This document shows, piece by piece, positions 18,819 to 23,146 of a DNA stretch of 40,160 nucleotides (within the stretch, counting starts at the first letter, position 1; each line of letters starts with the position of its first letter). The translations under genes were made by a program, and so were the position numbers. The DNA lies in assembly GCA_024743355.1 (NCBI GenBank), contig JANSWS010000021.1, forward strand, positions 1 through 40,160. The letters run 5' to 3'. The notes beneath the pieces are model-generated. The model saw nothing but the letters and a program-made list of their open reading frames with translations, had not been told where the DNA came from and ran no database searches. The DNA comes from a bacterium. Lineage in GTDB: Bacteria; Planctomycetota; Planctomycetia; Pirellulales; Pirellulaceae.

Positions 18819-20897
18819 TTAGTTGGCGGTCAGAAGAATGTAGATGGAATTATTACGTTGCGGGAAGACAAGCCGATTCGCGTACACCTCGCGGTCCGGG
18901 TCCATGTATTCGCAGCCATCCACCAAGGTCGTTTGAATCTCGTCCCATTTGCTGGTGATTTCCGAGGCCATCTTTTTCAGTGCCGAAGTATCGCGTGATG
19001 AGGTAAACATCACGTGGCCGCTACCATCCACCAGATAAACCTGTTGTGGCGTATCCATCAACTCCAGTTCAGGCCGAACCAGATTGCCTACCTCAGCCTC
19101 AGCCACCACCAATCCGAAAGGCTCTTCCGATCGCGCGTCAAAGACAGGCACCCCGCAAGTCACGCGGACTGCCCCCGAGGCCGTGCATTCGAAATCCATC
19201 ACACCGTCGCCCGGATATTGCTCGAAGACTGCCCGCTGAAAGTTGTTGGCCACGCCGCTCCGCAGACGACTTTGCGGCACGCTTCGAATGTGGGAAAAGT
19301 CATGCAGACTCCGCTCAACCCGCACGATTTCCTGAACGCGATCGTCGGCCAGACGACTGAAGCTATATCCCGACACATTGGGCTTAGAACGGGCAAGGGC
19401 AATCAAGATCTGCGAAAGTCGCTCACGCCAGATGGCGTACTCATCCGAATCGCCGTCGAAACTGTCGACCAGTTCCTGGATCGGCGGCAATTCGACCATG
19501 AACTGAGTACTCGTTCCTAACTGTCGAAGCTGGACGCACAATCGCGACTTCAGATCGCGTCCCGCCAAACGCATGGCATCGTAGCGCGTTTCCTTTTCGT
19601 GCTTGCCTGCAATCCAACGCTCGACTTCGGCAGCCAGATCCGTGGCGGTTGCATGACGGGCGAACCTTTCGCGAGCCATCGCCCGCTGGCAGATGGCGGC
19701 CAGATCATGCGGAATATCAGAATTCACCGCGCGGGGATCGGGAGCTTCGCGACCGGCTATGCAGTTCAAAAACTCCTCCACCCGCAGACTGCCATCCACC
19801 GAACGGTGACTGTTCTCGTGGGGCGCGTTGCCAGTCAAGATGGCGAATAAGATGGCGCCCAGTCCATAAACATCGGTTCGAGCGTCCAACTTGTCCAAAT
19901 CGCCGGCCGCCTGCTCGGGAGACATGTACAGCGGCGTACCCACCACATCTCCGTCGATGGTCTGGCTTAAATGGGCGTTGCTTGCGTCACCGGCCAGCGA
20001 CAAACGCAGGGCTAGCTCCCCATCACTATCCAACTTGGCCAGCCCCCAGTCCAGGACAATCACTTGCCCAAAATTGTCCAACACCACATTCTCAGGCTTC
20101 AAATCGCGATGAATCACGCCCCGCGAATGCGCAAAGGCAATGGCCTGGCAAACTTTCAAAAATACGTTCAGCAATCGATGCAGATCGATCGGCTCATCCA
20201 CATGCGCCTTGACCTTCGCGTGAAATTCACGAATGGCCTCAGCCAGAGTCTGCTTGCCCACAAAACGCATGGCGTAAAAGGGCATCTTCGTCTCGGGATT
20301 AACTCCACTCATGTACAACGGAACAACATTCGGATGCTCCAAGTGACCGGTTATTTCGGCCTCCCGCTGAAATCGCCTCCATAATCTCGGTGAAGCGGCC
20401 GCTTTGGGCGACATCTCCTTGATGGCCACGTTGCGCCGCAGCCTTTCATCTCGAGCCAACCAAACCGTACCCAACCCACCTTCACCAATCTTGCTGAGCA
20501 GCGTGAAGCGGCTGACCGCCTGTCGAATATCGGCGGACTCGGTGGCATCCTGAGAGAGATACGAAGTCGGCGTCTCAGCCACTTTGCTGGCCGTGTCATG
20601 CCAGCCGTTGCCAGCCGACCAGGAATCGCGTTGGGCGCTGCGAATCGCCCTCTTGAGCCGCTCCTTGGATAACTCGCTGAGGCCATCGGAATCTCGGCTC
20701 ACATCTTCCTTGCCCTGAGCGGCAGACCGCTCAATCCAAGCTGTCAGCGATTCAAAGGCCTGGACCGCCTCGGTTTGTTGTGCGTCCATCTGTGATTTGT
20801 AGCTTTCGAGCTCGCGCAACTCCTCACGCGAAAGCTCACCACTCATCGATCGTGAAATCAGCTCCGAGGCCGTTAAATCGCTGTCAATCTTTGTCAT
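18819..20897 (-). CDS. Ser/Thr protein kinase with a C-terminal Cache-like domain
   Basis: The 692-residue protein has an N-terminal helical region (1-125), a Hanks-type kinase (about 131-430) and a C-terminal sensor-like domain (about 445-692). Kinase marks are the glycine loop GEGGLG (138-143), Lys160, Glu179, the HRDLKPEN loop with Asp265, and DWG (283-285) in place of DFG, a variant I recall as common in planctomycetes. The C-terminal part, with GYSFSRLADDRVQEIVRVER and later VYLVDGSGHVMFTS, looks like a double Cache sensor. There is no membrane segment between the two, so the sensor would be cytoplasmic. The start codon overlaps the sigma factor stop by 4 bp (ATGA), implying translational coupling. 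Confidence 0.92.
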   Translation of the reverse strand: MTKIDSDLTASELISRSMSGELSREELRELESYKSQMDAQQTEAVQAFESLTAWIERSAAQGKEDVSRDSDGLSELSKERLKRAIRSAQRDSWSAGNGWHDTASKVAETPTSYLSQDATESADIRQAVSRFTLLSKIGEGGLGTVWLARDERLRRNVAIKEMSPKAAASPRLWRRFQREAEITGHLEHPNVVPLYMSGVNPETKMPFYAMRFVGKQTLAEAIREFHAKVKAHVDEPIDLHRLLNVFLKVCQAIAFAHSRGVIHRDLKPENVVLDNFGQVIVLDWGLAKLDSDGELALRLSLAGDASNAHLSQTIDGDVVGTPLYMSPEQAAGDLDKLDARTDVYGLGAILFAILTGNAPHENSHRSVDGSLRVEEFLNCIAGREAPDPRAVNSDIPHDLAAICQRAMARERFARHATATDLAAEVERWIAGKHEKETRYDAMRLAGRDLKSRLCVQLRQLGTSTQFMVELPPIQELVDSFDGDSDEYAIWRERLSQILIALARSKPNVSGYSFSRLADDRVQEIVRVERSLHDFSHIRSVPQSRLRSGVANNFQRAVFEQYPGDGVMDFECTASGAVRVTCGVPVFDARSEEPFGLVVAEAEVGNLVRPELELMDTPQQVYLVDGSGHVMFTSSRDTSALKKMASEITSKWDEIQTTLVDGCEYMDPDREVYANRLVFPQRNNSIYILLTAN

Positions 20898-20914
20898 GAT
20901 CCATCTTTGTCATG
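20887..20914. repeat. 12 bp direct repeat at the sigma-kinase junction
   Basis: ATCTTTGTCATG occurs at 20887-20898 and 20903-20914, a 16 bp offset. The first copy holds the kinase start codon on the minus strand; the second is inside the last codons of the sigma factor gene. It looks like a small tandem duplication that changed the tail of the sigma factor. Confidence 0.75.
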
Positions 20915-21526
20915 GAAAAAACTCATCTTGTCACTCGCCGGCCACTTCAAACTGACGCACCTCGCCAAGCTCAGACGGGCTCGATGTAGACGTACCCATA
21001 AGTTAGACGAAGAAATCTGCAATTCCTTACAAATTTCTTCGCTGGTCCATTCTTCCATGACGCTCAAAACGAATACATCCGCCTGGCCGGCGGGCAGCTG
21101 CTCCAGACACTTCTGCACCACCGACCACAACTCGCTTGTATTCAATCGGTCGTCGGGACCAACTTGCGGCAGAGTATTGGGCTTCCACCGCCCCTTCTCG
21201 TCGAAAAAGAACACGGTGGGATCCGTTTCTCCTCCCCAAGACTGCTCCAACTTGGCCCGTTTCCGCAGCAAATCGATCAGCTTGCGACGCAAAATGGCGT
21301 GTAGCCAAGCTTTCTGCGAACCGCGGCCCGAATACTCTTCCTGATGCACAATTCCCGCCAAAAAAGTCTCCTGAACGACTTCCTCAGCTGCCTGCGAATC
21401 GCGAAGCCTGGACCGCGCGTACCGATAAAACTCGTCTCCATACGCGTCCACCCACTCCTCAGGATCCAATTGCGCTTGAAAAACCTTGGTCTCGGGAATT
21501 TCGAAGTCAGATTCTTTGCTTGCCAT
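20894..21526 (-). CDS. ECF-type RNA polymerase sigma factor (kinase-associated)
   Basis: The 210-residue protein has region 2 (about 27-95: EFYRYARSRLRDSQAAEEVVQETFL, with AWLHAILRRKLIDLLRK) and region 4 (about 135-195: LEQLPAGQADVFVLSVMEEW then a helix-turn-helix SEEICKELQISSSNLWVRLHRAR), joined by a linker of about 40 residues. No anti-sigma gene is nearby. Instead the kinase gene overlaps its stop by 4 bp, the arrangement of the planctomycete ECF groups paired with Ser/Thr kinases, where the kinase is thought to control the sigma factor (known for the group, inferred here). The upstream region is gene-free for over 1.5 kb. Confidence 0.93.
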   Translation of the reverse strand: MASKESDFEIPETKVFQAQLDPEEWVDAYGDEFYRYARSRLRDSQAAEEVVQETFLAGIVHQEEYSGRGSQKAWLHAILRRKLIDLLRKRAKLEQSWGGETDPTVFFFDEKGRWKPNTLPQVGPDDRLNTSELWSVVQKCLEQLPAGQADVFVLSVMEEWTSEEICKELQISSSNLWVRLHRARLSLARCVSLKWPASDKMSFFHDKDGS

Positions 21527-21847: not shown

Positions 21848-22411
21848 GTCGCTTACCCGGGGCTGGTATGTCGCGCTACCTACGGGGCGAAATCCTGCGG
21901 GCTCACCCAGCAAACGACCAAACCTTGTCGGGGGCATACCCATGATGCATTTTACGCCATCATGCATTTACCTCAGGGATCCGTTACAGGGAGGGATCCG
22001 TTACGGGGCAGACCACTTCGGCAACTTGCCGCGGGGCAGACCACTTCGGCGGCCTACCAATGCAGCGTTCGAGAGCGGCCTGAAAGGCCAGGAACATACC
22101 AGCCCAGGGCAGAGCGTCGCGGCGGAGCCGCATAGCGCCGCCCTGGGATCGCGGCCAAATCAAACACCGAAAAGCCCTGAAAGGCAACGCTGTGCAGCAT
22201 TTTTGCATGGATTTACAAGCACGAAGCGCTAGCGAGTGTGTACTCGATGGCGACTGAAACTCACTTGCTGGCGCGTCGTGCTTGTATTTTCGGGGGAACC
22301 GTTTGACACAAAATGCTGCACAGCGTTGCCTGAAAGGGCGTCACAAATCGATGGGAGTCAGGGTACGCGTCCTAGCGGCAAGCCGTACAGGGATGTTGCG
22401 GACTCAAGAAC
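21848..22411. repeat. long structured repeat, copy A (interrupted)
   Basis: This block matches 22497-22884 along its whole length, once the inserted element at 22185-22328 is removed (about 411 versus 388 bp). Internal features include a tandem GGGGCAGACCACTTCGGC, CATCATGCAT repeats, CCTGAAAGG motifs, and a nested hairpin at 22103-22147 with outer arms CCCAGGGC/GCCCTGGG and inner arms GCGGC/GCCGC. No reading frame is shared in a way that suggests protein coding. Confidence 0.9.
22185..22328. mobile_element. 144 bp MITE-like element with 19 bp inverted ends and a 9 bp target duplication
   Basis: The ends CAACGCTGTGCAGCATTTT (22185-22203) and its exact reverse complement (22310-22328) are perfect 19 bp inverted repeats. 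The flanks carry CCTGAAAGG on both sides (22176-22184 and 22329-22337), while copy B of the surrounding repeat has this sequence once, as an empty site. Inside, TACAAGCACGA (from 22214) begins a 25 bp arm matched in inverted form at 22262-22286 (22 of 25). It encodes no protein, so it would have been moved by a transposase elsewhere. Confidence 0.85.
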
Positions 22412-22496: not shown

Positions 22497-22884
22497 GTCG
22501 CTTGCCCGGGGCTGGTATGTAGCGCCACCTACGGGGCGAAATCCTGCGGGCTCACCCATCAAACGACCAAACCTTGTCGGGGGCATACCCCATCATGCAT
22601 TACCCCATCATGCATGTACTCCAGGGATCCGTTACGGGGCAGACCACTTCGGCAACTTGCTGCGGGGCAGACCACTTCGGCGGCCTACCAATGCAGCGTT
22701 CGAGAGCGGCCTGAAAGGCCTGGAACATACCAGCCCAGGGCAGAGCGTCGCGGCGAAGCCGCAGAGCGCCGCCCTGGGATCGTAGCCAATCACACCGAAA
22801 AGCCCTGAAAGGGCGGCACAAACAGATGGGAGTCACGGTACGCGTCCTACGGCCAGCCGTACAGGGTGTTGCAGACGTAAGAAC
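22497..22884. repeat. long structured repeat, copy B (uninterrupted)
   Basis: This is the intact partner of 21848-22411. It keeps the same order of motifs: CCGGGGCTGGTATG, tandem GGGGCAGACCACTTCGGC, the nested hairpin at 22734-22778 (CCCAGGGC/GCCCTGGG around GCGGC-GAA-GCCGC) and the tail GTACGCGTCC...GCCGTAC. At CCCTGAAAGGGCGG (22803-22816) it shows the insertion site of the MITE without the element. Confidence 0.9.
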
Positions 22885-23146
22885 GTTGGGCCATGCCTTT
22901 GGGATGTTGGACCAGTCGCAGTTGGTCCTGTGCAGAGGCAGGCTTCCTGTTAAGATTTCCCCCTAATTGACGGTTTTCCAAGCAGCGGAAGGGAATTAGG
23001 TTCCAGTATTGCTCGGCCAATCCGCAGCCCCCCATAGCCCCCGGCTTTCAACATCATGCGAGCCGCTTGGGAGGGATAAGTAAGCTGGAGAGTTGTTATT
23101 CATCCGTTTCAATCGTTCCATTTTGCCAGCCAACAAGCGGTGTCCG
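22885..23146. other. upstream region of mqnA
   Basis: This 262 bp stretch joins the repeat block to mqnA. It contains GGGAGGG at 23070-23076 and GGAG at 23087-23090, purine runs that might serve an upstream TTG start at 23093 in the mqnA frame. I see no convincing promoter and no other gene. Confidence 0.4.

Follow-up and report, generated by a model that had tools for sequence, protein, structure and literature searches.

The 144-bp element described here shares its 19-bp terminal inverted repeats with an insertion sequence (IS) of its own genome, while its inner arms form a REPIN that also occurs without the surrounding shell, a feature beyond the sequence-only reading from which the analysis started. 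As far as sequence can tell, the self-complementary interior is thus one mobile element packed inside another. We consider it very likely that this MITE was moved in trans by an IS4-family (IS4Sa-like) DDE transposase, and that its REPIN cargo was captured once in the lineage and then copied together with the MITE.

Anatomy, copies and target sites of the element

The window, i.e. the whole analysed stretch of 40,160 nucleotides from a member of the Pirellulaceae, is one whole contig of an 8.31-Mb assembly of 823 contigs (G000, the own genome in what follows). The element is situated between a minus-strand gene for an ECF sigma factor (20894-21526) and a pair of menaquinone biosynthesis genes, the first frame of which begins at 23093, and its immediate flanks read ...AAAAGCCCTGAAAGG on the left and CCTGAAAGGGCGTC on the right. 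Direct reading and the repeat finder confirmed the perfect 19-bp inverted ends reported by the sequence-only reading (Table 1). Its claim of a 9-bp target duplication, CCTGAAAGG, with an empty site in a neighbouring repeat copy was borne out as well: the 9-mer is present singly in copy B, and copy A, once the element and one 9-mer are removed, aligns to copy B over 412 columns, of which 366 are identical and 25 are gap columns. The inner arms, described there as making the element nearly self-complementary, are 28 nt each with 17 nt between them and 86% complementary according to the repeat finder, and the 144 bp folded with a z of about -10 relative to shuffled sequences, whether treated as DNA or as RNA. 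Insertions favour the 13-nt palindrome GCCCTGAAAGGGC, which is found in the window both interrupted (22174-22184 with 22329-22339) and intact (22802-22814).

Table 1. Features of the element and of the two repeat copies, in window coordinates
Feature	Position	Strand	Basis
MITE, non-autonomous, IS4-type, non-coding, 144 bp	22185..22328	+	direct reading, repeat finder, copy search
Left terminal inverted repeat CAACGCTGTGCAGCATTTT, 19 bp	22185..22203	+	identical to both left IS ends of own genome
Right terminal inverted repeat, 19 bp, perfect, ends AAAATGCTGCACAGCGTTG	22310..22328	-	identical to both right IS ends of own genome
Left target duplication copy CCTGAAAGG, 9 bp	22176..22184	.	direct reading
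Right target duplication copy CCTGAAAGG, 9 bp	22329..22337	.	direct reading
REPIN arm 1, REP-like unit TACAAGCACGAAGCGCTAGCGAGTGTGT	22214..22241	+	repeat finder, arm matches in relatives and own genome
REPIN loop, common to MITE copies of own genome	22242..22258	.	segment conservation
REPIN arm 2, inverted REP-like unit	22259..22286	-	repeat finder, arm matches in relatives and own genome
Empty site, single CCTGAAAGG in repeat copy B	22804..22812	.	direct reading, repeat finder, A/B alignment
Repeat copy A, recipient of MITE (part alignable to B)	21848..22411	.	repeat finder, alignment
Repeat copy B, without MITE (part alignable to A)	22497..22884	.	repeat finder, alignment

A search of the own genome with the whole element (40 of 134 candidates scored) found at least 40 places with 83-100% identity, a few of them partial; a further search scored 40 of 118 candidates, and the true copy number is probably above 55. 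Sixty-four raw end pairs were present in the fetched loci; 55 were kept as copies, and the other nine, spanning 188-493 bp, were set aside as long pairings due to chance. Among these, the 9-bp duplication was perfect in 18 and matched at 8 or 9 positions in 33, versus 8 or more matches in 1.1% of cross-pairs, in which the left and right flanks came from different copies. When duplication lengths of 4-12 were compared, 9 bp performed best with a mean identity of 0.78, followed by 10 bp (0.44) and 8 bp (0.38). The remaining 22 copies had 1-7 of 9 matches, some with shifted or exchanged flanks on inspection. The targets have a symmetrical consensus of about GC-CCTNNNAGG-GC, and a 17-nt piece of the end, searched with up to 3 mismatches, occurred at 170 genome sites versus 10 for the reversed control. 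Other ends, or flanks never carrying 9-bp duplications, would have spoken against the MITE-like nature originally proposed; neither was seen among the other copies, and the 55 copies with the same ends, 33 of them with a duplication matching at 8 or 9 positions, support that proposal.

The element is therefore classed as a MITE on the grounds that it is short, non-coding and multicopy, has terminal inverted repeats and a duplication of constant length, has left an empty site, and shares its ends, the 19-bp repeat being identical, with an IS in the own genome. Bacterial MITEs such as RUP, NEMIS, Nezha and others span 70-300 bp, have terminal inverted repeats of 15-30 bp and are non-coding (PMC3733652). 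Our element resembles them in size, inverted ends and lack of coding capacity, and in the present case the target is also duplicated and an IS shares the ends; unlike RUP, NEMIS and Nezha-type MITEs, it holds a RAYT-linked REPIN core, and the shells of its relatives hold different REP-type cores.

Several further features of the copies were observed. Exactly CCTGAAAGG served as target for 3 of the 55 MITE copies and for one inferred IS insertion. Five loci (L025, L055, L112, L119 and L121) have a common flank, TTGTACGGG or GTGTACGGG, on one side and mostly different flanks on the opposite side, as if recombination between MITE copies had exchanged their flanks. A second small element of 191 bp, with ends TTTTGATGTTGCGCTA and an 8-bp duplication AGCGCTAG, is inserted inside a REPIN arm at L042:2323-2513 (contig C124 of G000). 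Its end sequence also interrupts the arm in L027, L043, L046, L048, L049, L053, L059, L116 and L289, mostly at one of two mirrored arm positions (by inspection), and this second element looks REP-targeted.

The cognate IS and its transposase

Contigs C215 and C675 stop 121 and 137 nt, respectively, into one sequence that starts with the 19-bp end, while contigs C623 and C271 start 140 nt inside another sequence that finishes with it. The sequences are identical within the left pair and within the right pair, and their flanks pair as CAGCAAAGG/CAGCAAAGG (C675, C271) and CCTGAAAGG/CCTGAAAGG (C215, C623). We take these four ends to represent a single IS inserted twice, its body having been lost to assembly; the pairing of contig ends into two insertions is based on the matching 9-mers. 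The two inferred IS insertions, like the MITEs, thus have direct repeats of 9 bp, in keeping with the ~10 bp used to recognise IS4 elements.

The visible part of the own-genome transposase comprises a C-terminal peptide of 39 residues and perhaps a few residues from its start, with the body unassembled. This peptide, located beside the right IS end, is present in 13 of 241 family genomes, the own genome included, and a related terminal repeat (up to 5 mismatches) was found at 15 of the 16 peptide loci of relatives. In three relatives the transposase occupies a whole single open frame, stop to stop and without frameshift (G137, 533 codons; G131, 517; G181, 530), and the YREK motif, Y-(2)-R-(3)-E-(6)-K, which De Palmenaer et al. 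(2008, PMC2266710) name as a distinguishing mark of IS4-family transposases, is present in all four ORFs of relatives, one of them partial. The relatives' transposase matched Pfam DDE_Tnp_1 with an E-value of 1.1e-14 (55 bits versus a cut-off of 23), and its best NCBIfam match was IS4 (NF033592, IS4_1) at 94.8 bits, below the cut-off of 115. The IS of G131 measures 1600 bp end to end, has CA ends, and is flanked by 9-mers matching at 8 of 9 positions (counted by eye).

These properties were compared with the IS4Sa row of De Palmenaer et al. (2008, PMC2266710), which gives duplications of 8-10 bp, a length of 1150-1750 bp and ends of the form CA------T. The IS resembles IS4Sa in its YREK motif, its one ORF without frameshift, its CA ends with T at position 9, its length of 1600 bp and its 9-bp duplication; it differs in that no close named relative was found on plasmids or in the PDB and in its NCBIfam IS4_1 score below the cut-off. 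On plasmids, the C-terminal peptide had no matches, and the whole transposase matched 13 records, all distant (the best at 23-33% identity over at most 52% of the query) and mostly annotated 'IS4 family transposase'; a search of solved structures in the PDB gave no match to the transposase. Judging from the relatives, the own-genome IS would encode the same kind of transposase and would be autonomous. The transposon with the same ends and 9-bp duplications that the sequence-only reading had proposed to look for was therefore recovered in part: both of its ends were found, and the IS4 family is assigned from relatives, the body in the own genome being unassembled.

Comparison of the MITE with the IS in the own genome detected no similarity beyond the 19-bp ends, and derivation of the MITE by internal deletion of the IS was rejected for this genome on that basis. 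In relatives, one long-side spacer of G140 is similar to left subterminal sequence of the IS in G137 (p 0.002 with 500 shuffles, a hint given 48 comparisons), and weaker signals were obtained in G003 and G175 (p 0.008, likewise a hint among the 48 comparisons), while the spacer/IS comparison in G238 and G027 gave nothing below 0.05.

The REPIN core and its link to a RAYT-like gene

Searching 59 relatives together with the own genome with the whole element gave matches in 13 relatives, and the matches listed are mostly to the inner hairpin and not to the ends. The arm motif ACAAGCACGAAGCGCNAGCGAGTG, with up to 2 mismatches, is present in 37 of 296 genomes of the order, with 586 occurrences in one of them, whereas the control had 0 among the rows listed. 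The arms listed in relatives often form inverted pairs, and the flanks of eleven arm loci in relatives are unrelated. By inspection, GCCC...AGGG replaces GCAC...AGTG in some genomes, a double substitution with which a small stem inside a single unit would be preserved, and a mixed form is seen in G012 and G403.

The own genome has 134 arms in total, many in MITE copies, and most may belong to MITEs. At 7 of 21 further own-genome loci (L161, L270, L272, L273, L274, L278 and L284), arms lie outside the shell, with neither the MITE loop nor a surrounding end pair, several of them as arrays. The core accordingly has two properties of a REPIN, namely an inverted REP pair around a loop and copies independent of the MITE. 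REPs usually bear a GTAG tag, which is absent from the own-genome unit; this begins with TACAAG (by inspection). Known REPIN/RAYT systems comprise inverted REP units of ~25 nt with a loop, units beside a Y1 HUH transposase gene, and many copies per genome (Bertels and Rainey 2011, PMC3116915; Di Nocera et al. 2013, PMC3733652). The present core shares with them the inverted REP pair with a loop, the units flanking a Y1 gene and the multicopy state; it is unlike them in lying inside DDE-transposon ends and being amplified with these, and in its untagged own-genome REP.

Segment identity among MITE copies, calculated for 52 of the 55 copies with three longer ones omitted, was 0.86 for the loop, 0.86-0.88 for the arms, 0.85 for the ends and 0.81-0.82 for the spacers. 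No extra conservation of the arms was seen in these 52 copies, since arms, loop and ends are about equal; the loop being as conserved as the arms and ends indicates that the REPIN moved as part of the MITE.

On contig C274 of the own genome, a Y1 transposase gene (Pfam PF01797, above cut-off) lies between arrays of arms, and a related gene of G012 sits between arm pairs. Homologues of the C274 gene were found in 75 of 296 genomes (E <=1e-12). A flank scan of 30 loci among the matches from these genomes revealed arms in the fetched flanks of 19, versus 0 of 30 with the reversed control, and none at the other 11; the arms stand on both sides of the gene in 18 of the 19 (16 by script, L218 and L230 by gene coordinates). 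A homologue is present in 25 of the 37 genomes with arms versus 50 of the 259 without (Fisher p 6e-9, a value that ignores relatedness), and 12 of the 37 arm-bearing genomes, including G020 with its 129 arms, have none at E 1e-12. Against NCBIfam, the C274 protein scored 20.9 bits for RAYT (NF047646, cut-off 80) and 27.7 for IS200 (NF033573, cut-off 55), while IS200 was the sole match of the G012 protein, at 19.7 bits. Because the RAYT and IS200 scores are below cut-off and the REP has no GTAG, we refer to the gene as RAYT-like.

Y1_Tnp genes were present in all 19 genomes tested, with or without arms. Among 64 scanned Y1 loci, 61 of them distinct, arms were found at 7 (near the gene in L123, L169 and L187; 1.3-3.2 kb off in L161, L163, L178 and L185), and 54 of the 61 had no arms nearby. 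The arms thus appear to be tied to one RAYT-like lineage and not to Y1 genes generally. A TAGCGG-type REP (Table 2) flanks the RAYT-like homologues of G400, G195 and G446, so that both types of REP are connected with a single RAYT-like group. At L161 (contig C795 of G000), with a Y1_Tnp at 208-552, GTAGCGAAA-type REP units (up to 4 mismatches) occur from ~0.6 kb onward, and the own genome may hold more than one REP/RAYT pair.

One shell with different cores, and its possible origin

Elements with both exact ends and 60-120 nt between them numbered 140 in 10 of 241 family genomes, spread over 4 genera, versus 0 in the control (Table 2). The duplication matched at 8 or 9 positions in 12 of 17 fetched loci outside the own genome and in 6 of 10 loci of named records, namely Stieleria sedimenti, Rhodopirellula sp. 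SM50, Planctomycetes bacterium TBK1r and a Planctomycetaceae MAG; the two sets overlap, L253 and L256 of the named records being G140 elements also within the 17 loci, and L254/L255 represent one insertion site in two strains. The cores within these shells differ. Those of G003, G140, G175 and G027 carry the GTAG tag (by inspection), and the inspected cores contain an inverted pair or a stem-loop. In five genomes, G003, G232, G235, G237 and G238, the REP family of the core is far more abundant than the MITE. Within genus g86, the TAGCGG REP (575-924 matches) and the exact-end MITE co-occur in G232, G235, G237 and G238; ten other genomes of this Stieleria-like genus have 0-5 REP matches and are without the exact-end MITE.

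Table 2. Exact-end elements, cores and TAGCGG-type REP matches (one pattern, up to 2 mismatches) by genome
Genome	Exact-end elements	REP-like core in shell	TAGCGG-type REP matches
G000	9	see Table 1	0
G003 (genus of G000)	15	GTAGCGGTTGGGCGCAAGCCCTCCGG	218
G140	6	GTAGCGAAACTCGTCAAGAGTTTCGG	50
G027	2	further core kind	
G174	1	further core kind	
G175	12	GTAGCGAAACTCGCAGAGAGTTTCGG	70
G232	17	TTAGCGGTAGGGCGCGAGCCCTCCGG	704
G235	20	TTAGCGGTAGGGCGCGAGCCCTCCGG	575
G237	16	TTAGCGGTAGGGCGCGAGCCCTCCGG	677
G238	42	TTAGCGGTAGGGCGCGAGCCCTCCGG	924
G012			2

In the mechanism that we favour, the IS4-family transposase would recognise the 19-bp ends, and the element would be cut out and pasted into GC-CCTNNNAGG-GC-like sites with a 9-bp stagger, which would give rise to the 9-bp target duplication. 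Cut-and-paste transposition is general knowledge for the IS4 family, and these steps are proposed by analogy with it; the IS would probably act on the MITE in trans. The REPIN would have been captured once in the own lineage and afterwards copied within the MITE, one capture per lineage presumably being the rule, and in other lineages other REP-type cores may have been captured or swapped into the same ends. Since the cores are non-homologous across lineages, capture or core replacement probably happened more than once. Going further, we tentatively propose, with less confidence than we would need to favour it, that the IS4-type MITE shell of the Pirellulaceae repeatedly takes the host's REPIN as cargo, so that REPINs would gain a second, DDE-driven means of spread and the MITE a host-suited core.

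A different history, conceivable although we would not bet on it, is that the REPIN was no part of the MITE at its formation: REPINs moved by RAYT would have inserted by preference into the palindromic middle of a MITE that already existed, a single time in each lineage, after which the filled MITE spread. The REP dimers of A. variabilis, T. roseum and H. neapolitanus offer a parallel, as they too are inserted within longer palindromes (Di Nocera et al. 2013, PMC3733652); the parts of that paper that deal with these palindromes term them targets and assign them no transposon, transposase or target duplication. Most shells are also alike in layout, with a short side of 0-10 nt and a long side of ~20-30 nt between end and core (by inspection). 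However, no empty MITE consisting of terminal inverted repeats only was recognised in the own genome among pairs 100-500 bp apart in the fetched loci, and loops as conserved as the ends argue against repeated insertion within one genome.

It is unlikely, in our judgement, that the core is a convenient hairpin, such as a terminator or host-factor site, that was selected for MITE activity and resembles a REP incidentally. The inverted pair or stem-loop of every inspected core would suit such a role, and G140 and G175 hold the TAGCGG-type REP (50 and 70 matches), yet their MITEs carry another core, of which, for G140, five loci of ~38 kb showed no copy outside the shell. The presence of this REP in G140 and G175 beside MITEs with another core somewhat lowers our belief in the favoured mechanism and in repeated cargo uptake and raises it for the incidental hairpin. 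Against it stand the 575-924 core-REP matches versus 16-42 exact MITEs in G232, G235, G237 and G238, with 0-5 matches in the ten other congeners, the 218 versus 15 in G003, and the arms flanking a RAYT-like gene in G000. Finally, one might regard all 144 bp as a large element of REP/BIME type, moved by RAYT alone, with the outer 19-bp repeats as another REP layer. This notion might draw on the almost complete self-complementarity and on the RAYT-like gene of the own genome, but it is highly improbable and largely refuted by the 9-bp duplications, which HUH single-strand transposition is not known to make, and by the IS, which is bounded by these ends and has relatives coding for a DDE transposase; the REP arms without shell at 7 of 21 further loci also oppose it.

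We therefore retain transposition of the MITE by the IS4-family enzyme, with the REPIN as captured cargo, as the preferred reading. Di Nocera et al. (2013, PMC3733652) note that R. baltica contains numerous genes for tyrosine transposases flanked by repeats, and REPs in planctomycetes are consequently not new. In the open literature, to the extent that its text could be searched, no published description was found of these 19-bp ends or of MITEs with a REPIN core; the packing of a REP into IS4-type ends is thus the part for which we found no earlier description there. The palindromes of A. variabilis, T. roseum and H. neapolitanus may deserve inspection for transposon ends.

Descriptions of REPINs link them to a RAYT gene present as a single copy in the same genome. 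A MITE shell carrying REPINs would allow them to amplify, and perhaps also to be transferred, independently of the RAYT, and it makes it possible to examine which of the two, the RAYT or a DDE transposase, determines how abundant REPINs are in a genome. The different cores within one shell offer a natural experiment on how MITEs gain their middles.
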